A stretch of DNA of 20,630 nucleotides from a virus, in the IMG/VR virus record IMGVR_UViG_3300032731_001083, positions 1-20,630 of that record, one strand, 5' to 3'. Positions 849-19,821 of this stretch are shown in pieces. The translations under genes and the position numbers were made by a program. Under the pieces are notes generated by a model. That model made no database searches. It saw nothing but the letters and a program-made list of their open reading frames with translations, and was not told where the DNA came from. Numbering within the stretch: the stretch's first letter is position 1; each line of letters begins with the position of its first letter.

Positions 849-1175
849 TCAATACTCCTTTGCCAAAATGTCTAAAACAACATTTCTTTCTTCAATGTTA
901 ATTATTGACACAATCTCAAAGGCCCGCGTCCCGTGGTAGATTTTCATGGTTGACAAAATTCCGGTTTGCCAATCGATTCTGATTCTATGTGTAGTTTGCA
1001 TTTCAAGTTGATCTGATTGTATCAACTCCCTTGCCGATACCGGCCAAATCGCTGCCCGGCATGTTAAAAAGGTTGTCTCCGTTTCGGTTAATCCGCCGAT
1101 GCCGTCCGCAACGGTCGTGGTCGTTTTGATCACGATTTGATGTCTAAGGTCGCTCCGGCGGATGATGGGTATCAT
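849..1175 (-). CDS. head-tail joining protein (stopper/adaptor, Phage_H_T_join-like)
   Basis: The 108-residue protein has the layout of the SPP1 gp16 / Phage_H_T_join family: an N-terminal LRHQIVIK strand, a GIGG turn, a central WPVSARELIQSD segment, THRIRIDW, and a C-terminal YEI-like strand (FEIVSIINIEERN) ending in a hydrophobic strand. Members form a ring that closes the portal channel after packaging and receives the tail. It directly follows the gp6-like connector, with the stop codon and the ATG adjacent, which is the usual order in HK97-like phages. The start at 1175 gives the family's normal length of 100-115 residues. Function is inferred from pattern and position. Confidence 0.8.
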   Translation of the reverse strand: MIPIIRRSDLRHQIVIKTTTTVADGIGGLTETETTFLTCRAAIWPVSARELIQSDQLEMQTTHRIRIDWQTGILSTMKIYHGTRAFEIVSIINIEERNVVLDILAKEY

Positions 1176-1973
1176 TTAAAATTCCCAAAGTTTAGACTTG
1201 ATCAAAAGATTTTCAACGGTCTTCAACGTGTTAATTGTCACACCTTGACCGATAATATTGGTTTCCCTCAGTTCGTACATATCCGTTATCATCAAAAAGA
1301 TTGCTTGTTTAATTATATACGGCACCGTCCGCCCAACGCATGTCCACGTGATATCGTTGTCAACCACAGTGCCATCAATCAGTGTGGGCCAGGTCGGTTC
1401 GGCTGTGTGTGATGTGCCCGATGTTTCATCCTCGGTACTGGACTGATAGACAAACCCGTTTCCGGTGGTCGGCACCACATAATCATCTTCTGAATATTCG
1501 GTTGACACGACATACAAGCTGCCCTGATACCAGCCGCACACGAATTGAACCTCAATCGGATTCGTAGGGTATAAAACAGCCGTCGGAAAAGACTTGTCAT
1601 AAGCGAGCACAGCGGCCCCAGGTTCGGCGTATGTGTCGACATCATACTCAGTATCGGCCCATGTCGTTTGATCCTCGTCAGTGTCCGTATATTTGATATG
1701 GGTCACGGATTGCAGTTGCCCATATGGGAGATAAAACCCGCCGGAGAGATACCGATTCGGATCACAGCCGGTCCAGCCGTCGAGATACAGGTTCCACGTT
1801 TGCCTGACCAGCCGGCGGAAAAGAATTTTTTCGGCCAATTCGGTAGCCGTCAGGATTTTGTTATTGATCAGAGCGTCATCGGTCGTGAAAGTAGACAAAA
1901 GATTCAAATGCGCCTTGGCTTCCACCAATGACACCGGATTCAACGCCGGTCCTGATATGGGGATGGTTTTCAT
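1176..1973 (-). CDS. head-tail connector (HK97 gp6-like) with an inserted domain
   Basis: The N-terminus (VSLVEAKAHLNL at 15-26, DDALINNKILTATELAEKIL at 32-51) and C-terminus (VPYIIKQAIFLMITDMYELRE at about 217-237) match the helical gp6-like connector family, which forms a ring under the portal. Family members are usually about 100-200 residues. This one has 265 because some 65 residues are inserted between CGW (146-148) and VPY (217). The insert contains GFVYQSS and EPTWPTLIDGTVVDNDITWTCVG, a module I associate with phage structural and adhesin proteins. The gene overlaps the small membrane protein upstream by four bases and abuts the joining protein downstream. Confidence 0.75.
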   Translation of the reverse strand: MKTIPISGPALNPVSLVEAKAHLNLLSTFTTDDALINNKILTATELAEKILFRRLVRQTWNLYLDGWTGCDPNRYLSGGFYLPYGQLQSVTHIKYTDTDEDQTTWADTEYDVDTYAEPGAAVLAYDKSFPTAVLYPTNPIEVQFVCGWYQGSLYVVSTEYSEDDYVVPTTGNGFVYQSSTEDETSGTSHTAEPTWPTLIDGTVVDNDITWTCVGRTVPYIIKQAIFLMITDMYELRETNIIGQGVTINTLKTVENLLIKSKLWEF

Positions 1974-2140
1974 TTAGGTATCCACTGACTTAGGCCCACG
2001 GACCCGATAAAAATTAGAAATAATATCCGCAGCCAGAAGATTGATTTTTTATTGACAGCAACATCGACTTTAAGCCCGTTGATTTGATCAACCTTTTTTT
2101 CAATCCTTAATAATATCTCGGTCAACGCCTCGTTCTCCAT
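1970..2140 (-). CDS. small single-pass membrane protein
   Basis: The 56-residue product has an amphipathic charged N-terminal half (MENEALTEILLRIEKKVDQI) resembling a short coiled coil. A hydrophobic C-terminal segment follows (FWLRILFLIFIGSVGL, about residues 35-50), and it ends in a short tail. AAGGA lies nine bases before the ATG. The stop overlaps the next gene's start as ATGA. Similar helix-plus-TM proteins occur in many phages near tail or lysis genes, some as holin-like proteins, but nothing here proves that role. The gene sits between an exported lectin-like protein and the connector genes. Confidence 0.7.
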   Translation of the reverse strand: MENEALTEILLRIEKKVDQINGLKVDVAVNKKSIFWLRILFLIFIGSVGLSQWIPK

Positions 2141-2152
2141 TGCATTTTTTCC

Positions 2153-3706
2153 TTATCTGCTCGTCAACCCTTCTTCAAGCAACCGTAAATATATTTGTTG
2201 CATCTCTGCTGCCGTTAAAGCACGTTGCCAAAACAGATCGCCGGCATCTTGCCCATTAAGATACGCGCTACCCTCTGCGCTGGCTCCAAGAGTCAGGGGG
2301 AAATATGTGTCATAAACCGTAGCCCCCGGAGCGCCACCGCCAAGATTTGAGGATGCCAAGGCAACTCCGTCTTTGTAAAATGTATAGGTCGGTCCGGTCT
2401 GGTCATAGACCCCACCAATTACCGCAAACGTAGCCATTGCACCATCTGTAAATGCTGCGGCATCGGTTACCTCCCCTTCTTCTGTAGCCCCATCACTTGA
2501 CACGGTTGCCTCTAATTTTCCAGTTGTTTTGACTGTAACACCGAGGGAAAAGATATCATTTGCATAATCCGTGTTACTCCATAAAACTTCATCGCCAGCA
2601 GGTTGACCATCATCCAGTTTAACTATTTTCATAAAACTATGAGATCCGGTCAGATTTCCGTCACCGATGGTTTTAAACACTTCCATCGTGACAATCCCAT
2701 TTGGATTAAATGTCGCGGCCTCTCCCGTCAGGTTGCGATTGCTTCCTGCGGGGTCGTCGTAGAGGTGGACTGCGGTTTCCCCAAGGGCGGTGACTTCTTC
2801 AAATATTACATCATCAATCCATCTATCCCCGCTAGTTTCTTCACCTGCATATATTGCAACTTTTACATTTATCTCTCGAGACGTAAAATAAAGCTCTACT
2901 TTTTGATATGATCCTGTCGTTATAGATCCCACCTTATGATCCAAATAGGAATCATCACTGGCTTTTCGAATACCGGCACGAATATCCGTGGTGCCAGTAG
3001 CGTATACCCAGAATGTTAATTTATATAACTTTCCGACCACTGTGGCAAAACTATCTGAGAGAATACCATCCCCATCGCTATTGATAGTAAATTTTCTCGC
3101 CCAAACACCACCATGTACATGCGTGTTATCTTGAATATTTACTGCTGGAGTAGTAAAATTAGCCCAGTTAGCGTCGGCTTCCATTGTGCCGTTTGGCGGT
3201 CCAATAGAAGCATTTAAAGCCTCCGCAGCATCAGCCTCGCCTATGTAGACCCACGCATAATCAGGGGTTACATCTCCGAGCCTAACACGATAAGGGAGAG
3301 CGCTGGCGCTTGAACCATAAAGAGCAGCTACGTCAATACCAGTAACAAGGAAGGCGGCTTCCCCATCTTTTGTAATAATGGCAAATGCCGTTGCTCCGGT
3401 CTCATCGTCGATTTCTTCCTGCTGGACAAAATCCGAACCGTCAGCATCCCATATCGGAAAGGAAGCATTCATAGAACTGACGAAAGCAAATTGATTGCCC
3501 GCGGTTAGTTGATGAAAATCGTTATCCTGCCGGGATCTATCTCTGATATCTTGCACTGTGGAGTGCAGGGGATTAATTGCAATAACTAATCCGGTGGGAT
3601 CAACCCCGGCCCTGGAGCTAAATGCTATGCCGTCCCAGGCATAGGCAACAACTGGATTGAAAAGAATTAAATATGTTAGAAGGTATACAAAAAATCGTTT
3701 CATCAT
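2153..3706 (-). CDS. exported lectin-like protein (CBM-like plus LamG/concanavalin-like domains)
   Basis: The 517-residue protein starts with a strong Sec signal peptide: MMKR, a hydrophobic core at about 5-19 and a VVAYA cleavage site near 23. Residues about 170-305 look like a jelly-roll carbohydrate-binding module; they include GGVWARKFTINSDGDGI, KLYKLTFWVYATG and a closing DRWIDDVIFEEV. Residues about 330-510 look like a LamG/concanavalin A-like lectin domain, with the characteristic ending DLFWQRALTAAEMQQIY. No catalytic motif is evident. An ATGA overlap couples it to the preceding exported protein. Lectin domains of this type often decorate virions or form adhesins; the signal peptide on such a protein inside a head operon is unexpected. 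Confidence 0.7.
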   Translation of the reverse strand: MMKRFFVYLLTYLILFNPVVAYAWDGIAFSSRAGVDPTGLVIAINPLHSTVQDIRDRSRQDNDFHQLTAGNQFAFVSSMNASFPIWDADGSDFVQQEEIDDETGATAFAIITKDGEAAFLVTGIDVAALYGSSASALPYRVRLGDVTPDYAWVYIGEADAAEALNASIGPPNGTMEADANWANFTTPAVNIQDNTHVHGGVWARKFTINSDGDGILSDSFATVVGKLYKLTFWVYATGTTDIRAGIRKASDDSYLDHKVGSITTGSYQKVELYFTSREINVKVAIYAGEETSGDRWIDDVIFEEVTALGETAVHLYDDPAGSNRNLTGEAATFNPNGIVTMEVFKTIGDGNLTGSHSFMKIVKLDDGQPAGDEVLWSNTDYANDIFSLGVTVKTTGKLEATVSSDGATEEGEVTDAAAFTDGAMATFAVIGGVYDQTGPTYTFYKDGVALASSNLGGGAPGATVYDTYFPLTLGASAEGSAYLNGQDAGDLFWQRALTAAEMQQIYLRLLEEGLTSR

Positions 3707-4620
3707 TTCACCGTAACCGCCATCGTAATTCCGATTGCATCCCCAGGATCGGCAAGCGAAGTGAGCTTTGCATGGATTTCGCCGGAACTATCGGCGTCGG
3801 CAAACGGGAAACCATCGACGATACGGATCTCTCTTGATATGCCCTCATCAACCGCGTGATCGCCAACAAGAGTCGTAACAACAACGGTGTCGCTATCCGT
3901 TATGGCCGCCAGGTTGACTGACTCAGCCGTACCCCCCATAAGCCGAATCCAGTCATACACAAGCAGTCCGGCGGACGAATCCAGATCGCCGCCAGTGCCG
4001 GCCGCCGACCATGTGCCGGTTTTGACTTCCGTGTATGTCAGACTGAAGTAAATCAGTTTGCCAATTCGGTCTTGCCCGAGTTTCGTATCCTTTGTAAAAA
4101 ACTCAAGGCGAAAGTTGACATTCATATCCGCGCCCGGATCGTTTACACCGTCAGCAAGATATATCCGGATCAAGGTTGACTGGACGTAGTTTCCAGGGAG
4201 TCCGGTTATGTCGAGTTCAACCGTTTCTGCCGCGTCGATATCGGGGAAATCATCGGATACGGTCGTGCCAACATCGGTCAATCGCGCCGTTAAATTCGCC
4301 GGAGTCAAGACAACGCCGGTCGCCGTGCCTGTTACGGCTTCGGAGTCAATCGCAAGCTCGACAACGCCCTCTGCGCTTGCTGTGGCTGTGGACACGCCCA
4401 GCGTCAAGGTGTCAGCATCGGCCCCGGGAAATATATCATTGACGCCGCCGGTGATCGGCGACGTAGTTACCACGTCGCCGAGTTTCAAGCCGGATCCGGT
4501 CCCGCCATTTTCAACTGCAAGCGGCAAATCAGGCGGTAAAACGGTTGGGGTGAACGCGCCAACGATCCCCGCGATCGATAAAACCGCCAGAATTAATATA
4601 AAAAATTGTGATCGTTTCAT
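3703..4620 (-). CDS. exported protein with a tail-fibre-type repeat
   Basis: The 305-residue product begins with a signal peptide (MKRSQFF, a hydrophobic stretch at 6-20, cleavage near VGA at 20-22). After VENGGTGSG (36-44) comes SAEGVVELAIDSEAV at 82-96 and VVLTPANLTARL at 103-114. This matches the short repeat typical of phage tail fibres, a G-V-V-E/Q-L-A...E-A...T-P-A-N-L pattern. The remainder (about 120-305) appears beta-rich and ends TMAVTVK. GAGG lies about six bases before the ATG. The gene is eight bases downstream of one exported protein and overlaps the next by four bases. It is probably a surface or fibre component; the cellular location after export is unknown. Confidence 0.65.
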   Translation of the reverse strand: MKRSQFFILILAVLSIAGIVGAFTPTVLPPDLPLAVENGGTGSGLKLGDVVTTSPITGGVNDIFPGADADTLTLGVSTATASAEGVVELAIDSEAVTGTATGVVLTPANLTARLTDVGTTVSDDFPDIDAAETVELDITGLPGNYVQSTLIRIYLADGVNDPGADMNVNFRLEFFTKDTKLGQDRIGKLIYFSLTYTEVKTGTWSAAGTGGDLDSSAGLLVYDWIRLMGGTAESVNLAAITDSDTVVVTTLVGDHAVDEGISREIRIVDGFPFADADSSGEIHAKLTSLADPGDAIGITMAVTVK

Positions 4621-4627
4621 AGCTGCC

Positions 4628-5146
4628 TCACTTAACGAAAGTCAAAACGATTGTCCAGGTTGCCGAAGCCGTAATCTGATCATCGACATCAAGGGTTAAT
4701 GTCCCGGTAATCACAGGGTAATATAGTTGATGCGTCCCGGCCCTGGTCAAGTACATATCCGGCAGACAGATTTTTGTCAGAGATGCATGGATTAAATTTA
4801 ACCCCTGGTATGCCGTGGAATTGTCAATTGATCCAAGCAAATCAAGTCCAGACGCATCATAAATAAGCACACTCGCCGCATCGGGCGATGTCCCGCCAAC
4901 CGTTTTGAACGCCTTGATTTCGACCAGTCGCAAACCCTTTATGAATGCCGTGTTTGCCGTATTGGTAACCGTGTTTGATATGGTTCCGGTTTCAGCAGCA
5001 GTTCCGCCCACACATACAAAAGTGAGTGTCCGCGTATGGGTATCGATCTCAAGCGGCGTTTGCGTGACTGTTCCGACCGCACCAAAAACCACCGCCGGAA
5101 AAAGTAAAAGCAATATTAATATTGAAGTGATAAATAATTTTTTCAT
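4628..5146 (-). CDS. exported small beta-sandwich protein, virion-accessory-like
   Basis: The start is placed at the ATG at 5146, giving 172 residues. It has AAGGG about nine bases upstream and yields a clean signal peptide (MKKLFITSILILLLLFPAVVFGA). The upstream in-frame ATG would add twelve residues read from the hairpin at 5163-5192. The mature part has SVLIYDASGLDLLG (about residues 91-104) and TLTLDVDDQITASATWTIVLTFVK at the C-terminus, a pattern I associate with phage head accessory proteins that normally lack a signal peptide. It lies between two other exported proteins. The exact family is not certain. Confidence 0.65.
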   Translation of the reverse strand: MKKLFITSILILLLLFPAVVFGAVGTVTQTPLEIDTHTRTLTFVCVGGTAAETGTISNTVTNTANTAFIKGLRLVEIKAFKTVGGTSPDAASVLIYDASGLDLLGSIDNSTAYQGLNLIHASLTKICLPDMYLTRAGTHQLYYPVITGTLTLDVDDQITASATWTIVLTFVK

Positions 5147-5162
5147 TTTTAGACCCTTTAAG

Positions 5163-5192
5163 AACGGAACCGGTTTCGGCACCGGTTCCGTT
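5163..5192 (-). terminator. perfect 12-bp hairpin between exported-protein genes (possible attenuator)
   Basis: A perfect inverted repeat, AACGGAACCGGT at 5163-5174 and ACCGGTTCCGTT at 5181-5192, has a six-base loop. On the minus-strand transcript it is followed by only a short T-containing run (CTTAAAG). It sits 11 bases after the stop of the 1149-residue gene and just before the ribosome-binding site of the next one. It could be a weak intrinsic terminator that lowers downstream expression, or an mRNA 3'-end stabiliser. The weak T run argues against full termination. Confidence 0.55.
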
Positions 5193-5202
5193 ATCTCAGT
5201 TT

Positions 5203-8200
5203 CTAGTTCGCCACCACCGAAGCGCTTTCCTCAAGCGGTCGCCAATAACAATGAATTCCGATTGCACCATCGTTTAGGTTTTCGCCTGATTCGGTGATCC
5301 CGATATCGTCATCCGCCATAATGACTTTTGACGGAGAAGACGCGGAGCTTGCCGACGTCGCGCTTGTCCAGACATCCCCGATTGACAGAGGGGCATTTCC
5401 GCCGGTAGCCGCGATCAATAAAACGGTGTTACCGTCAATACCACCAAGCGCGACCGTTCCGGCGTCGGAGGTAAGGGTTTCTGTAACTTCGCCGTAAGCC
5501 AGCACCTCGACCGTTCCGGTAACCGTGAAAAGCGCCGTGGTTCCAGCCGTACCTAACAGATCATAGAGTTTATAGGAATAATACCAGCCATCCTCCATCA
5601 TAGCATGGTCAGGAGCGTCCGTCATGTCGCTTTCAACGATCTTATTATCAAAAGCCATGCATGACCCAGGATCTAAGATCGCACCCGGCACCGTGGCGGA
5701 CAGGATGTTATTATGGATATATCCGGTCGATGCTCCTGAAAGCTGAACCGCGTGCTGACCAGCGTTCACGTTGTTTACGGTATTACCCTTAATCACCGTG
5801 TTTAAATTTGCAGCATCGCTATGAATCCCCGCGTCATCGTAATCACCCCAAATCCGGTTATTCTGAATCACCAGATTTGTTTGAGCGCCCGCCGTGGCAT
5901 TAATGAAGGCGTCACCATCGGTATCAAGATCATAGACAAAGTTATCCTCGATAACGATATCCTTCAAAGTCGTTGCCAGGTCGATACCGAGCACATGGCC
6001 CGCAGCGGTGCCAGTGAATTGACACCCTCGAACCACAAGCCCACTCGCGTCCGCATCGATCGTCACAACGTTGTCGGTAGTCGTGGAATAAAAATGAATG
6101 CCCTCGATCGTAACGTCCGCCGCAGTAACATTAATTTTTGACGCACCGGCAGTCATCGTAATCATGGGCATTTTCTCGCCCGTACCCAGGCCAACAATCG
6201 TTACCCCGGCCTCATCCAGTGTAGTCGTTGCCGCTGCCAGAGTTTCTTCATGATCCGGAGCAACAAAAACGATATCGCCCTTATCATCAGCGGTCAGATC
6301 GTAGCCCTGAACAATTAAAGCCTTGGCAAGCGCCCATGTTAATCCACTATAGCTTGTGTTTCCGCCCGCGTCGTCAACGTAATACACATTTCCGATACTA
6401 CGTCCGGAGGCCCGCATTCCCGCAAGCACCTGTTCAGACATTTGAGCCAGGTATTCCAGCCGCTCGACATTCGAGCCGTCGGCATCGGCCAATACAGACG
6501 TGGTTATCATCATCGCGGACCCGAGATCCGCCGTTCTAACGAGCATGATAATATCGCCCGTTGCCGCACCAGCGGAAGCAAGCGCCGCGTGAGTCAAGGC
6601 GCCCGTTGCCGTCACGTTTGCCGTCACGTCAACTATTTCACCTTCAGGAGCTGCTTTTCCCGCCGCTTGATCGAACAAGACGACCATTGACCAGTCACCT
6701 GCAAAATATCCAGTCGGATACTGACCAAGCGCGAGCGCCGTTGTGTGAGTCGTATCAATCACCGCAGCAGTTACCGGTACAATAATTTTGTCGCCGCCAA
6801 TGCCCTGAATAAATTCCAACCGCTCAAACACCGAGCCGTCGTCATTCGCAACCACCGAAGTCGTGGCCATAGTATTATCGGAATCATCGACACCGAGCAT
6901 ACCGGCAATACTATCATTGGTGTCCTGGATCGTGTTTCCGTCCGTGCCGATGATATCAACTAATGATTTGCTGCCATATAATTGAGTCCCTTGGCCAGCA
7001 GCCCCGCCCGCCACAAACGTAGCCAATGATCCGGCCAGCGGAGTTGTATCCAAAAGAGCGCTATCAATCGCCATGTCTTCACGACGTTTGATCATTATAA
7101 CGTCATCGGTGCCAGTTGTCGTAAAAGCCACCGCGACTGTGAACTGGCCAGTGCCCGTAACATATCCCGTAATATCTTGGCACTCACCTTCAGGGGCAAC
7201 GTTGCCACCCCCAGCGTCCCAGATAACGCAAGCCATCCAATTAGTTTTGAAATAATTGGTGCCATACCCTATCATGGCCGTATCAATAAACGTGGTTGTT
7301 CCACCGGTCGTAACAGTCGCTAAATAATACGGCCCCATGGCCGCAGTCAGTGTGTCAAGGTCTGTTTGGATTAGATCCAAATCGGAAAATACGCTATCGT
7401 CCTGATCGGTTCCCTCATCAGCCGTAAAAGCACCCAGCTTGTCAGAAAGCGCCTCAAGCGCATCGGTCGTGTTTACATAGCTCGTATTAACCGGAGGATC
7501 GTCTTTAGAAATCATATGAGCTATAACAGAATCCTGGACCACCGACGTTGGAGACGCGCCCGTTCCTGAAGCCACCTTAAGTAAAGTGTCCAGTTCATCC
7601 GCGTCAATCGCTGCGGTCATCGATGTTTGTACGGCTGTCAATGTGGTCGCGTTAAGCTGAGTCCAACCGGTGTCATGAACCGGGTATGGCGCTCCAGATT
7701 TGGCCGTTGTCGTTGTAGTCAGGTTTTCCCCGAGGTACATCGTGCCAAAAGTCGCACTTGTCGCTTCGGCATTGGTGAAAACCCGGTTACCATCAGCGAA
7801 ACCGGTCGCGTTCCCGGCAAACTCGATTGCAAATTCGCCGGAGGTCATTTGCACGACACGGTTATTTAGGATTTTACACCGAAGATCCGCGTCATTCGAC
7901 CAGATTGCCGCAACCGAAAATTCACCCTGGATATCGTTGTTAATGATCTGCAAACCATCGTTCGCGCCGTTTCCGGCCTCAATAAAATGTTCCGGCCCGA
8001 CCGCGGCGGTATGATAATACTCATTACCGATAATCCGCACGCCGTTTGCATCATCCTCAAGGTCAATGCCGTCAATGAAATCATAGGTACCGTCTGACGG
8101 TTCAGGAAATACAGAGTTTAGCAGTGTGAAATTATCGCCGGCATCCTCAACCGCAATTCCAAGAACTATGGCATGCACCCCGGCGATGAATTGAAAATTC

Positions 8201-8652
8201 TCAATTGTCACGTTTGCCGCGCCGATTGCCACCGTCGAAGCGGTTTCGTCAAAGGTAAATGCCGGTCGGTCTCCGCCTTCACCCAGACCCACAATGCGCA
8301 ACCCAGCGATCGTGATATCAAAACCGTCAGCGGCGGAGATGGTTTCGGCATGACCCGCAGCGACATAAACAATATCGCCGTTGTTTGCCGTGGCCATGGC
8401 AGCGCAATAATCCAGCGTTAGACACGGACTGATCGGATTCCGGCCATGCCCAGCGGTATCGCCGCCGGTCACCGTCATGCCGGAGTCAACGTACCATATG
8501 TCCCCGGTCGTTTGACTGGTATCCAGCACGCCAAATATACCGCCTGGCGATTGCTTGATAAATAATGGAGACCACTGCCCGTCCGCAGCCGCAAGGCCCG
8601 CAAAAAGGAGAAGGATCCCCAGTGTAATTGATAAGAATTTGAGTTTCTTCAT
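5203..8652 (-). CDS. large exported right-handed beta-helix protein with duplicated domains
   Basis: The 1149-residue product starts with a signal peptide (MKKLKFLSITLGILLLFAGLAAA) behind a strong GGAGGA Shine-Dalgarno. Residues about 50-300 form a pectate-lyase-like parallel beta-helix: WYVDSG, GDIVYVAAGHAETIS at 92-106, ITIAGLRIVGLGEGGDRP at 113-130. Residues about 755-1005 repeat it: YYVDDAG, GDIVFVAPDHEETL at 792-805, VTIVGLGTG at 817-825. Between them lie two copies of another domain, about 440-530 and 620-710, each with an APEGE motif, and repeated linkers with DGS..ERLE. Residues about 1024-1149 form a separate beta-rich C-terminal domain. No lyase catalytic residues are evident, so a structural or adhesive role is likelier than enzyme activity. 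The start of the head accessory operon segment fits a virion decoration or fibre protein. Confidence 0.75.
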   Translation of the reverse strand: MKKLKFLSITLGILLLFAGLAAADGQWSPLFIKQSPGGIFGVLDTSQTTGDIWYVDSGMTVTGGDTAGHGRNPISPCLTLDYCAAMATANNGDIVYVAAGHAETISAADGFDITIAGLRIVGLGEGGDRPAFTFDETASTVAIGAANVTIENFQFIAGVHAIVLGIAVEDAGDNFTLLNSVFPEPSDGTYDFIDGIDLEDDANGVRIIGNEYYHTAAVGPEHFIEAGNGANDGLQIINNDIQGEFSVAAIWSNDADLRCKILNNRVVQMTSGEFAIEFAGNATGFADGNRVFTNAEATSATFGTMYLGENLTTTTTAKSGAPYPVHDTGWTQLNATTLTAVQTSMTAAIDADELDTLLKVASGTGASPTSVVQDSVIAHMISKDDPPVNTSYVNTTDALEALSDKLGAFTADEGTDQDDSVFSDLDLIQTDLDTLTAAMGPYYLATVTTGGTTTFIDTAMIGYGTNYFKTNWMACVIWDAGGGNVAPEGECQDITGYVTGTGQFTVAVAFTTTGTDDVIMIKRREDMAIDSALLDTTPLAGSLATFVAGGAAGQGTQLYGSKSLVDIIGTDGNTIQDTNDSIAGMLGVDDSDNTMATTSVVANDDGSVFERLEFIQGIGGDKIIVPVTAAVIDTTHTTALALGQYPTGYFAGDWSMVVLFDQAAGKAAPEGEIVDVTANVTATGALTHAALASAGAATGDIIMLVRTADLGSAMMITTSVLADADGSNVERLEYLAQMSEQVLAGMRASGRSIGNVYYVDDAGGNTSYSGLTWALAKALIVQGYDLTADDKGDIVFVAPDHEETLAAATTTLDEAGVTIVGLGTGEKMPMITMTAGASKINVTAADVTIEGIHFYSTTTDNVVTIDADASGLVVRGCQFTGTAAGHVLGIDLATTLKDIVIEDNFVYDLDTDGDAFINATAGAQTNLVIQNNRIWGDYDDAGIHSDAANLNTVIKGNTVNNVNAGQHAVQLSGASTGYIHNNILSATVPGAILDPGSCMAFDNKIVESDMTDAPDHAMMEDGWYYSYKLYDLLGTAGTTALFTVTGTVEVLAYGEVTETLTSDAGTVALGGIDGNTVLLIAATGGNAPLSIGDVWTSATSASSASSPSKVIMADDDIGITESGENLNDGAIGIHCYWRPLEESASVVAN

Positions 8653-8667: not shown

Positions 8668-8700
8668 TAAAATTATTATGCCGTGTTAAAATTGTTATGC
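8668..8700. repeat. 14-bp imperfect direct repeat
   Basis: TAAAATTATTATGC (8668-8681) and TAAAATTGTTATGC (8687-8700) differ at one base. The second copy contains the stop codon of the 159-residue head protein; the first lies in the short gap before the large exported gene. It may be a remnant of a local duplication or of recombination at this gene boundary. No function is evident. Confidence 0.5.
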
Positions 8701-9174
8701 AAGCGCCGATACTGACAAGTTTTTGGTGTAACGGGGCTCAAGAATCGCGTGAACCTGGATATTGCCAGTTGCCGACCCACAAACGCATCGCAATGACAAC
8801 CAATTTTCGGCGTTATCCATGTCCATCACAACGGCCTCAAGTTCGACAATCAGCATAAAATTTGATTTAGTCAAATAACCAACCGTCAACGCTGCGCTGG
8901 TAGCATCAGCGGCCAAAACATCAGCGTTGGCAGTTCCCTGAGCAGCACCGCCAAACGCATAATGAAACGTCAGGGGCGATGTCAAAGTTCCTTGAGCCGC
9001 GCCGCTATAGGCATATAATACAAAATCTGCCCCGCCCATGGTCTGAATACCGATGATAAACATGGCGCGATGATAGTTTTTCATATTGATGCCTTTGGTA
9101 TCTAAGTTTGCGCCGGCGTTTAAATCGCCGTCACTTAGAACCGGGACAACCTTAAAAATCTCTGGAAATCTCAT
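8695..9174 (-). CDS. putative head decoration/accessory protein
   Basis: The 159-residue protein has no signal peptide, unlike the four gene products that follow it. Its N-terminal half contains DLNAGANLDTKGINMKNYHRAMFII (about 17-41) and its C-terminus ends in a strand followed by AILEPRY (about 143-149). This 'NMKNYHRA...LEPRY' layout is what I associate with a family of small phage structural proteins encoded just after the capsid gene. AAAGGAG lies seven bases before the ATG. The position immediately downstream of the capsid gene supports a capsid-associated role. No experimental function is known to me for this family. Confidence 0.65.
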   Translation of the reverse strand: MRFPEIFKVVPVLSDGDLNAGANLDTKGINMKNYHRAMFIIGIQTMGGADFVLYAYSGAAQGTLTSPLTFHYAFGGAAQGTANADVLAADATSAALTVGYLTKSNFMLIVELEAVVMDMDNAENWLSLRCVCGSATGNIQVHAILEPRYTKNLSVSALA

Positions 9175-11427: not shown

Positions 11428-13437
11428 TTACCCCGCAGTTATAAAACAATCACATCCACTATGTAACTGTGGATATTTCGTCAAACCCCTGATCGGCATC
11501 GGATCTTGACCCTCGACTTCTATCTTGGTCCCTGCCTGCACAAATGCTTCGCCCTTAGCAACCGTTCTGCCAGCAAGCGATTGGCAATAAGGACAAGTAG
11601 TAGGCCCACGGATAGCCCAAACAGACCGAAACCCGCCCGCAAAGAAGGTGGAAGCCGCGACCATATTCGCCATCGAAACCGTTTGCCGATTGGCAACTTT
11701 GTCCGCCCGTTTTTCGTGCCACTCATCAACTCGTACCTCCAGATCCGTCAATTCGCCCTCAAGCAGCGCCACAAGCTGCCCGCGCGAGGATCCAATATAT
11801 TGTGCCGAGAAACCCTCGGTGTATTCCCGGATCTCATCTTCAAGCTCAGCCGTCAAGCCGACATCAGTCCCGATTTCGCCCGCAGCCGCTTCCTGAATCG
11901 ACTCCGCAAAGGACCGCATAGTCGGCGCGATCGTATCGATCACATAGGTCGGCATGTCCCGGTAAAAATCATCCAGCCATTTTTCCATATTCCGCTGCGC
12001 CCTGGATTTTGCTTGCTTACCGACTTCTTTTTTAACGGCGATGCTTTCCCGATTGACGATCTTCTGAGCCGCGTCATGGAAAAGCGGATAGTATCTCTTG
12101 GCAACCCGGTCCCGGCCCCGGACAGACTGTAAAGCCGATGCACGATACTCAATCGCTCGGGTATTTGTCTGGACCGGGACCGGGACCGGTTGCCTCGGTT
12201 CATTGACTGGAACGAAGTTTAACGGCACCATACCGACATCGCCACCGTCGACCGGATTAATATCATCCCGATCAAGCATCCGGTTTAACGGCATTCCCAT
12301 CTGCCAATATCTTTGATCGATTTCAGATCGTGATTTCGCATCCGGACGAAGGAGGCCGTCAAAATTGTATTTAATAAAAAACCCGGCACGCCGCTGCTCA
12401 GATGTCAACAACTTGGCATTCATTGCCTGCTCATCGCGCACAAGCCAGGTCAGCATACAGTTATCCAAGTGCGCCTTGTTCTGTTGCTCAGTATTGTTAT
12501 ATGACGCGCCCTTTTGGAAAACGCTGAGTTTTGCGGGTTGAACACGAAAAAGACCAAAAATATCCTCTTTCGTCGTTTTCATTAATTCGAGCAACTGAGC
12601 ATCGGCCAGTTTGATATTGAATGGAATAAATTTGCCATCATCCTCAAGCACCATTGGCCTGCGTGATCCGGTTGAACCGGTGCCCATAAATTTTTTGTCA
12701 ACGGCTTTTATAAAAGCTTTTTTATTCTCTCCAAGATCTCCTGGAAATGTGAAAAACCCGCTCGGTGAAAAACCTTGTTTGAAATACAGGCTTTCAAACT
12801 CGACCTGGCTCAATCCGATCCCGATGGATTCACGCGCAAAGTTCTGGATCATTGATTCACCCAATAGACCATTAAAGCCGAAACCCGGAATATGCAGGAT
12901 ATCACGAGCTGGTCGTGGGTCAGGTTCGCCCTGGATTTGATAAACAATTTTTCCGCGCCCATATAGCCGGCCGCCACCGAACTTGTCCAAATCGCCTGTG
13001 AGATATTTGGTCCGCTTTGGAGTAATCAGCTCCGGTCTGACCGGCCAAATCGCTTTAACTCCTTTGCCAGACCGTTCGATCACGGAATATTGATTCCCGC
13101 CCAACAATATTTGCCCTTGGCCGGTTTCGCGCCAGGTGAATGATGTCATCTCCGGATTGGGTTCGTCGTGTAACAGGAAATATAAATCTTCATCCCTTGC
13201 CGGATCAGTACCGCCGCTTTTTCTTTCCTTAAGCAGTTTTAGCGGTAACTTTGCCTTGTCTGAAGAAATCAACATCACACAGGCAGCAACCGCCGATAGC
13301 CGCATGGCCGTCTGTTTATTGATAGCCTTTCCGCTATCGGAAACACCACCAGTCAACGAATACCAAAAATCATCGTATGCGGTTAAGCTGCCGCCGCCTA
13401 TGACTTGTGATCGGCACGTTTTAGAATATAGACCCAT
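11428..13437 (-). CDS. portal protein fused to a MuF-like head morphogenesis domain
   Basis: The 669-residue protein is much longer than a typical HK97 portal (about 400-450). Residues about 30-400 match the HK97 portal family: SAVAACVMLISSDKAKLPLKL (48-68), LLHDEPNPEMTSFTWRE (about 88-104), the DILHIPGFGFNGLLGES segment, and the late helix FGLFRVQPAKLSVFQKGASYNN. After a Pro/Val-rich linker (VPVNEPRQPVPVPVQ), residues about 430-669 resemble the Mu gpF head-morphogenesis domain. It ends with CPYC at 615-618 and HSGCDC at 659-664, likely a metal site. The portal forms the dodecameric DNA gate at one capsid vertex; MuF domains are minor capsid components. The start is coupled to the upstream small membrane protein, whose 3' end it overlaps by 40 bases. 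Confidence 0.88.
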   Translation of the reverse strand: MGLYSKTCRSQVIGGGSLTAYDDFWYSLTGGVSDSGKAINKQTAMRLSAVAACVMLISSDKAKLPLKLLKERKSGGTDPARDEDLYFLLHDEPNPEMTSFTWRETGQGQILLGGNQYSVIERSGKGVKAIWPVRPELITPKRTKYLTGDLDKFGGGRLYGRGKIVYQIQGEPDPRPARDILHIPGFGFNGLLGESMIQNFARESIGIGLSQVEFESLYFKQGFSPSGFFTFPGDLGENKKAFIKAVDKKFMGTGSTGSRRPMVLEDDGKFIPFNIKLADAQLLELMKTTKEDIFGLFRVQPAKLSVFQKGASYNNTEQQNKAHLDNCMLTWLVRDEQAMNAKLLTSEQRRAGFFIKYNFDGLLRPDAKSRSEIDQRYWQMGMPLNRMLDRDDINPVDGGDVGMVPLNFVPVNEPRQPVPVPVQTNTRAIEYRASALQSVRGRDRVAKRYYPLFHDAAQKIVNRESIAVKKEVGKQAKSRAQRNMEKWLDDFYRDMPTYVIDTIAPTMRSFAESIQEAAAGEIGTDVGLTAELEDEIREYTEGFSAQYIGSSRGQLVALLEGELTDLEVRVDEWHEKRADKVANRQTVSMANMVAASTFFAGGFRSVWAIRGPTTCPYCQSLAGRTVAKGEAFVQAGTKIEVEGQDPMPIRGLTKYPQLHSGCDCFITAG

Positions 13438-19195: not shown

Positions 19196-19534
19196 CTATT
19201 CACAAAGCGTATCCGGATTAACAATATCCCGATTTTCCCAATTCAGCAAATGCATAAGCTCATGGCCCAGGATTGCCTGATTAACGATGATCTGGCCCTT
19301 GTGCCGATACCCGATCACATAAATGTCCCCACCGCTCGCACAGCCAACCGCAGCCGGTCCACACGGCATATCTTGAGTACCTGGAACAATATGAATCATG
19401 ACCCGAATTGGTATCATGATATTTTCATCGATTCGCTCAAGCCCGGATACCGAATGCTGGAATGATTTATAGCCATCTTTGATATCGGTAGCCATGCAGC
19501 CGGTTAGGATTATTAGGATTAAAAAGTATTTCAT
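19196..19534 (-). CDS. lipoprotein with an HExxH metallopeptidase-like motif
   Basis: The 112-residue product starts MKYFLILIILTGC, a signal sequence with lipobox LTG-C, so it should be lipidated at Cys13 and face the periplasm. Near the C-terminus is GHELMHLLNWENRD: HELMH matches the zinc-binding HExxH signature with preceding hydrophobic VNQAIL, as in metzincin-like and other small metallopeptidases. Cys residues in CGPAAVGC may form a disulphide. The start at 19534 is supported by AGGTGG five bases upstream; the GTG at 19543 is not. It starts two bases after the stop of the preceding membrane protein. Activity is not proven. Confidence 0.7.
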   Translation of the reverse strand: MKYFLILIILTGCMATDIKDGYKSFQHSVSGLERIDENIMIPIRVMIHIVPGTQDMPCGPAAVGCASGGDIYVIGYRHKGQIIVNQAILGHELMHLLNWENRDIVNPDTLCE

Positions 19535-19536
19535 AA

Positions 19537-19821
19537 TTACCACCTGTCAATCCATGCCCGTTTTGCCGGTGAAAAGGGATGAACCCTAAAAGAGAATGAT
19601 TTCATTATTACTGGGGGATCGATTTTGTCAAACCAGATTCCACCGTCCTCACCCCACCAGCCGGCTAAAGGAATGACCCAATATTCACCATTAACCTTAA
19701 TCCCAACACTGACCCCGGGTTCATCAAACAACGGCATAGGCGGCTTCAAAAACCCGTTGAGTACAATAACCGAAACGATCAAACAGACAATTAACAAATA
19801 AACTGCAATTCGTTCTTTCAT
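19537..19821 (-). CDS. membrane-anchored protein of unknown function
   Basis: The 94-residue protein has an N-terminal hydrophobic helix (AVYLLIVCLIVSVIVLNGF, about residues 6-24) after a short charged start, with no clear cleavage site. It is probably an inner-membrane anchor with a periplasmic domain. That domain is rich in Pro and aromatic residues (WVIPLAGWWGEDGGIWF, RVHPFSPAKRAWIDRW). It is the first gene of the leftward transcript and is adjacent to the HELMH lipoprotein. A pair of envelope proteins encoded beside an early control region resembles lysogenic-conversion or exclusion genes, which is only inference. Confidence 0.65.
   Translation of the reverse strand: MKERIAVYLLIVCLIVSVIVLNGFLKPPMPLFDEPGVSVGIKVNGEYWVIPLAGWWGEDGGIWFDKIDPPVIMKSFSFRVHPFSPAKRAWIDRW

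Follow-up and report, generated by a model that had tools for sequence, protein, structure and literature searches.

Predicted Sec signal peptides on four adjacent virion-type genes in the head operon of an IMG/VR virus

Four adjoining genes (P1 to P4) in a viral late head operon encode virion-type adhesins that begin with predicted Sec signal peptides (SPs), and the clustering of export signals on such proteins suggests a site of maturation or action beyond the cytoplasm. The accepted view places the whole assembly of tailed phages in the cytoplasm. In the phages described here, export signals occur on several virion-type families, are clustered, and follow two routes (SPI and SPII), while they are missing from close relatives. 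This leaves two readings: virion completion takes place outside the cytoplasm, or phages have redeployed adhesins of their own as secreted factors. Either would change the annotation of such genes and the view of phage adhesion to hosts, debris, and matrices. In our judgment, the block is a novel variation on virion adhesins that are already known. Mostly narrow queries of the open-access literature turned up no description of virion proteins that bear SPs.

The four-gene block and its signal peptides

The window, that is, the whole stretch of DNA analyzed, corresponds to an IMG/VR virus record of 20.6 kb, whose minus strand encodes an HK97-type late operon. The operon runs in the order terminase genes, portal, protease, MCP, decoration-like gene, P1 to P4, mini-protein, connector, and head completion. 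P1 to P4 (positions 8652 to 2153, minus strand) fill most of a slot whose upstream edge is the decoration-like gene (8695 to 9174, minus strand), of a family conserved after the MCP, and whose downstream edge is a gp6-like head-tail connector gene (1176 to 1973, minus strand; phrog_442, E = 6e-14). Read from the sequence, the mini-protein (1970 to 2140, minus strand) has 56 amino acids and a single C-terminal membrane segment and overlaps the connector start. The head completion gene lies at 849 to 1175 (minus strand; PF05521, E = 3e-21).

All four genes are on the minus strand. P1 (5203 to 8652; 1,149 amino acids) comprises an SP, two beta-helix regions, and a predicted C-terminal jelly-roll domain; P2 (4628 to 5146; 172 amino acids), an SP and a beta-sandwich-like domain; P3 (3703 to 4620; 305 amino acids), an SP, fibre-like repeats, and a C-terminal domain that is exchanged in contig L128; and P4 (2153 to 3706; 517 amino acids), an SP and a LamG-like lectin domain. 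The preliminary description of this DNA held that the four starts are backed by ribosome-binding sites or overlaps, and this stands: P1 has a strong site (GGAGG), P3 has GAGG, P2 has a weak AAAGGG, and P4 starts in an ATGA overlap. The P2 start is the ATG at 5146; a GTG at 5182 lacks orthologue support.

Genes were called with our own scripts, as were SPs, for which a rule-based scorer was used rather than SignalP. The scorer was positive on seven textbook Escherichia coli signals (OmpA, PhoA, MalE, LamB, Bla, DsbA, and Lpp) and on 0.9% of shuffled proteins. It scored P1, P2, P3, and P4 all as Sec/SPase-I SPs, with a positive n-region, a hydrophobic core, and an AXA-type cleavage site. The P1 SP (8584 to 8652, minus strand; MKKLKFLSITLGILLLFAGLAAA/DG) has its predicted cleavage at ..FAGLAAA/DG. 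The corresponding minus-strand features are 5078 to 5146 for P2 (MKKLFITSILILLLLFPAVVFGA/V; predicted cleavage ..AVVFGA/V), 4555 to 4620 for P3 (MKRSQFFILILAVLSIAGIVGA/F; ..GIVGA/F), and 3638 to 3706 for P4 (MMKRFFVYLLTYLILFNPVVAYA/W; ..VVAYA/W). The mature proteins are acidic (pI 4.0 to 5.1) and of soluble type. Sequence analysis found no further strong membrane segment in them, and a scan of P1 to P4 found no lipobox or other recognisable anchor; none is a small lipoprotein of the T5 Llp type.

Three other minus-strand features of the window were recorded. A lipoprotein-like gene (433 to 852; ..FLISC) directly past the head completion gene is an extra exported candidate outside the slot. The portal protein (11428 to 13437) apparently has a fused C-terminal head-morphogenesis (MuF-like) domain (weak phrog_24918 match, residues 612 to 666). 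At 19196 to 19543 and 19537 to 19821, a lipoprotein-like ORF (..LTGC) with a HELMH zinc-protease-like motif overlaps a short gene whose product has a membrane segment at its N terminus. The early region of the L127 contig also contains a lipoprotein-like gene.

Recurrence and enrichment of signal peptides in relatives

A search with P3 recovered contigs L125 to L128. The whole block with its SPs, which the preliminary description had proposed to look for in related phage contigs, recurs in L125 to L127 and mostly in L128: SPs are kept in the syntenic orthologues of all four genes in L125 to L127 and of P1 to P3 in L128. The order in L127 is P1, an additional SP gene, P2, P3, P4 (all with SPs), a small membrane protein, and the connector; in L128 it is P1, P2, P3, another SP gene, a small membrane protein, and the connector. 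Both small membrane proteins occupy the place of the 56-amino-acid mini-protein. Beyond these contigs, SPs are kept in P1 of L090 and in P2 of L072, L008, and L019, so that P1 orthologues with SPs are found in L127, L128, and L090, and P2 orthologues with SPs in L127, L128, L072, L008, and L019. The P1 relatives of L059, L048, and L025 lack the SP.

Relatives were gathered through the decoration gene, not through SPs, and the resulting sample of 78 distinct contigs is therefore free of SP selection. Among genes of the slot (those between decoration and connector), 29/216 were SP positive, versus 0/310 conserved head genes (terL, portal, MCP, decoration, connector, and HCP) and 5/394 other plus-strand genes (Fisher p of about 2e-12 and 1e-9, respectively). 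These counts include both L015 and L016, which are near-identical; without L016, there are 27 SP genes. The SP genes of the slot are confined to 15 contigs versus 22.3 expected (0/5000 permutations), which points to clustering by phage. Arrays contain five SP genes in L019, four in the window, three in L090, and two each in L013, L015, and L103, and SP-bearing and SP-less proteins are mixed within the slots of L008, L009, L015, and L072. With the positive score of all four N-termini, the retention of SPs in syntenic orthologues, and this enrichment, the earlier claim that four adjacent genes begin with Sec SPs is borne out.

The choice of start codon does matter for P2 and for the gene at L127:4157, and chance hydrophobic N-termini or wrong starts could in principle produce such calls. 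We reject this explanation as very improbable, given the syntenic SP-bearing orthologues: SPs and gene order are conserved in independent contigs, ribosome-binding sites are present, and the enrichment (p of about 1e-9) stands against a shuffled rate of 0.9%. In some phages, head genes encode targeting peptides that are removed by cleavage, and the P3 signals of L127 and L128 lack a good cleavage site, theirs being less canonical. Both points favor a different explanation, in which the hydrophobic N-termini are membrane-assembly anchors or capsid-targeting peptides cut by the phage head protease rather than Sec signals. It appears improbable to us, though less so than chance, because the N-termini follow the Sec plan (K/R, hydrophobic core, and AXA), an AXA-type motif closes the hydrophobic core in 27/29 SP-bearing slot proteins, and a slot protein of L045 has a lipobox.

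Export for disulfide formation was also considered and is unsupported, since cysteines are fewer, not more numerous, in SP-bearing proteins (0.55 versus 1.08 per 100 amino acids). Lysozyme-like and papain-like (YiiX-type) genes were read from the sequence in or near the slot (L019:6211-7942 and L127:10770-11273), and L127 has a trypsin-like gene and a peptidase-like gene close to the connector.

Mature domains and homologues without signal peptides

P1 matches PF16318 (DUF4957; E = 2e-9, residues 809 to 935), indicating a beta-helix. Its C-terminal domain (5203 to 5604, minus strand) is related to the A6 family, a stand-alone SP-less protein found in the same slot in >30 contigs. The A6 profile matches the P1 C terminus of L128 (1.5e-27) and an SP-bearing protein of L085 (1.7e-29); the domain of the window is more diverged (phmmer, 1.4e-6 to L085; hhalign, 2.3e-4) and falls below the 1e-3 limit of the profile search. 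A model of this domain (pLDDT 71.7) is nearest, with marginal scores, to jelly-rolls of viruses, trimeric phage cement proteins among them: its PDB matches include 7dou (E = 2.5e-3), 7dn2 (E = 6e-3), and 7eel (E = 1.5e-2), cement proteins of KHP40/KHP30 and Pam1. The domain may thus resemble capsid cement proteins in fold, a likeness that the model makes marginal. Several of the predicted viral proteins closest to the model are named just virion or structural proteins. A PDB sequence search with the domain gave no match.

For P2, the best match of a model against the PDB was no better than E = 0.029. A homologue without an SP is present in the Methanosarcina virus MetMV (hhalign, 4.7e-14; BLASTP, 6e-10), and a looser P2-like family without SPs precedes the connector in both L035 and L037 (by alignment and a weak hhalign link of 5e-4).

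P3 of the window matches tail families weakly (phrog_910 and phrog_972, E = 0.006 and 0.008) and shares 72% identity with P3 of L127. In L128, the SP and N terminus of P3 are conserved, and the C terminus is replaced by a phrog_5302 "tail protein" domain (E = 2.4e-84). MetMV encodes its P2 homologue directly upstream of a homologue of this replacement domain (MK170447.1, 42771 to 44768; L134), both without SPs; the adhesin pair of P2 and L128-type P3 therefore crosses the divide between bacteria and archaea. The L128 domain (L128:5986-7947) is also homologous to a phage Perkons protein (L137; ORF176/175). Because the gene of the Perkons homologue adjoins a reverse transcriptase gene, the domain may be a target of a diversity-generating retroelement. 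SPs were absent from the homologues of the L128 domain in the four named viruses checked.

P4 has a LamG-like match just under the family cut-off (PF13385, E = 6e-6), and its L127 orthologue, with its own SP, has one above the cut-off (E = 2e-9). PDB sequence searches with P4, A10, and L128 P3 gave nothing useful, and no relatives of P4 were found in named phages. The mature parts had been described as virion-type and adhesin-like, and both descriptions agree with these results: P1 has a DUF4957 beta-helix, P2 is beta-sandwich-like, P4 is LamG-like, and P3 combines weak tail-fibre repeats with, in L128, a tail-protein domain.

Homologues of P1, P2, and a DGNLVFYD family, the last present in the slot of relatives and not in the window, lack SPs in most relatives and begin at the mature N terminus. 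The P1 relatives of L059, L048, and the named record MW202647 begin at the mature P1 start, and that of MW202647 directly follows the capsid gene. The earlier statement that the usual relatives have no SP thus holds for direct homologues in the same slot and for named phage records. Gene position, family names, and fold are the grounds on which these homologues are regarded as putative virion proteins. The DGNLVFYD family is SP-less in twelve contigs, has SPI signals in L015, L019, and L050, and is a lipoprotein in L045. Its occurrence in SP-less, SPI, and lipoprotein forms implies that SP addition is a recurrent modification of virion-type proteins and not a property of one gene. The lipoprotein-signal form (LLVS/C) lies at L045:1386-2102, and a P2-like gene without an SP comes next within that slot. 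No relatives of the L019 DGNLVFYD protein or of the L037 protein were found in named phages.

The longer SP-bearing contigs, which are fragments, were searched for a further copy of P2 or P3 without an SP; none that convinces was found, and the one weak profile match lies in the contig of L008. On this ground, we rejected the idea of an exported decoy encoded alongside a virion copy that lacks an SP. The SP-bearing copy seems to stand in for the SP-less one rather than to supplement it.

Possible destinations of the proteins and comparison with known systems

The reading that we tentatively prefer, at somewhat less than even odds, is that P1 to P4 are Sec-exported virion-type adhesins that join virions at lysis as capsid decorations. 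The proteins would be made late, translated together with the other head genes, and exported by Sec, with their SPs cleaved by signal peptidase I. The mature proteins would be kept outside the cytoplasm (in the periplasm of a diderm host), away from capsid assembly, until lysis brings them to the released virions, where they would attach to the capsid exterior as decorations of the cement or fibre type. The P1 jelly-roll is a candidate dock, and P3 and P4 may serve as glycan- or receptor-binding tips. If true, post-lysis decoration would be a new way in which virions mature.

In a competing account, to which we give a little less credence, the proteins are exported adhesins derived from virion proteins but are not virion parts. 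Their site of action would be the host envelope or debris, where they would mask receptors or glycans and so spare progeny from loss on lysed cells, exclude superinfection, or alter the lysogen surface. This account draws on the export signals themselves (SPI and, in L045, SPII), on the lectin-type P4, on the apparently temperate nature of L019 (an integrase-like gene was read from its sequence), and on the precedent of T5 Llp (PMC9586334). It is opposed by the apparent substitution of the SP-bearing copy for the SP-less one, the location of the block within the late head operon, and the lack of an anchor in P1 to P4. Display on the host surface, addition to virions after lysis, and binding to the host matrix, as put forward in the preliminary description, are all conjectural destinations. 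Because these proteins have no lipobox or anchor, display outside a diderm host would need an extra step absent from the sequences; the L045 form, as a lipoprotein, would be tethered to a membrane. A search for the host with the MCP returned only short or distant MAG contigs. Post-lysis decoration is favored because the SP-bearing copy apparently replaces the SP-less one and because P1 may end in a cement-like fold. The difference between the two is small, and the mixed slots and the L045 lipoprotein fit envelope or debris action at least equally well.

A broader and more doubtful proposal is that virion maturation might be split across the membrane: capsids would be cytoplasmic, Sec-exported capsid fibres would mature outside and be added when lysis mixes the two pools, and SP gain or loss would switch between internal and external assembly.

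Known systems resemble the block in part. The jelly-roll cement proteins of Helicobacter phages KHP40/KHP30 and cyanophage Pam1 are encoded in the head gene region, and the model of the P1 C-terminal domain resembles their fold at marginal scores. Their addition is assumed to occur in the cytoplasm, and they lack SPs, whereas in P1 the domain ends a 1,149-amino-acid protein with an export signal. The phrog_5302 tail receptor-binding proteins (MetMV, Perkons, Freya, and crAss-like phages) include the C-terminal domain of L128 P3, and MetMV has the P2-P3 pair; however, the four homologues checked lack SPs, and P3 of the window has a different C terminus. Lambda Lom and Bor are moron or lysogenic-conversion proteins with SPs and, as is predicted for P1 to P4, are exported proteins encoded in phage late regions. 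Morons are single genes with no SP-less homologues in the same capsid slot, whereas P1 to P4 form a multigene array of virion-type domains. Phage T5 exports the lipoprotein Llp, which blocks the receptor as well as adsorption to fragments of cells (PMC9586334). Llp is a phage protein sent to the envelope and is thought to prevent progeny loss on cell fragments (PMC9586334). Llp and superinfection-exclusion lipoproteins are small, early, of the SPII type, and not from a virion adhesin family, whereas P1 to P4 carry SPI signals.
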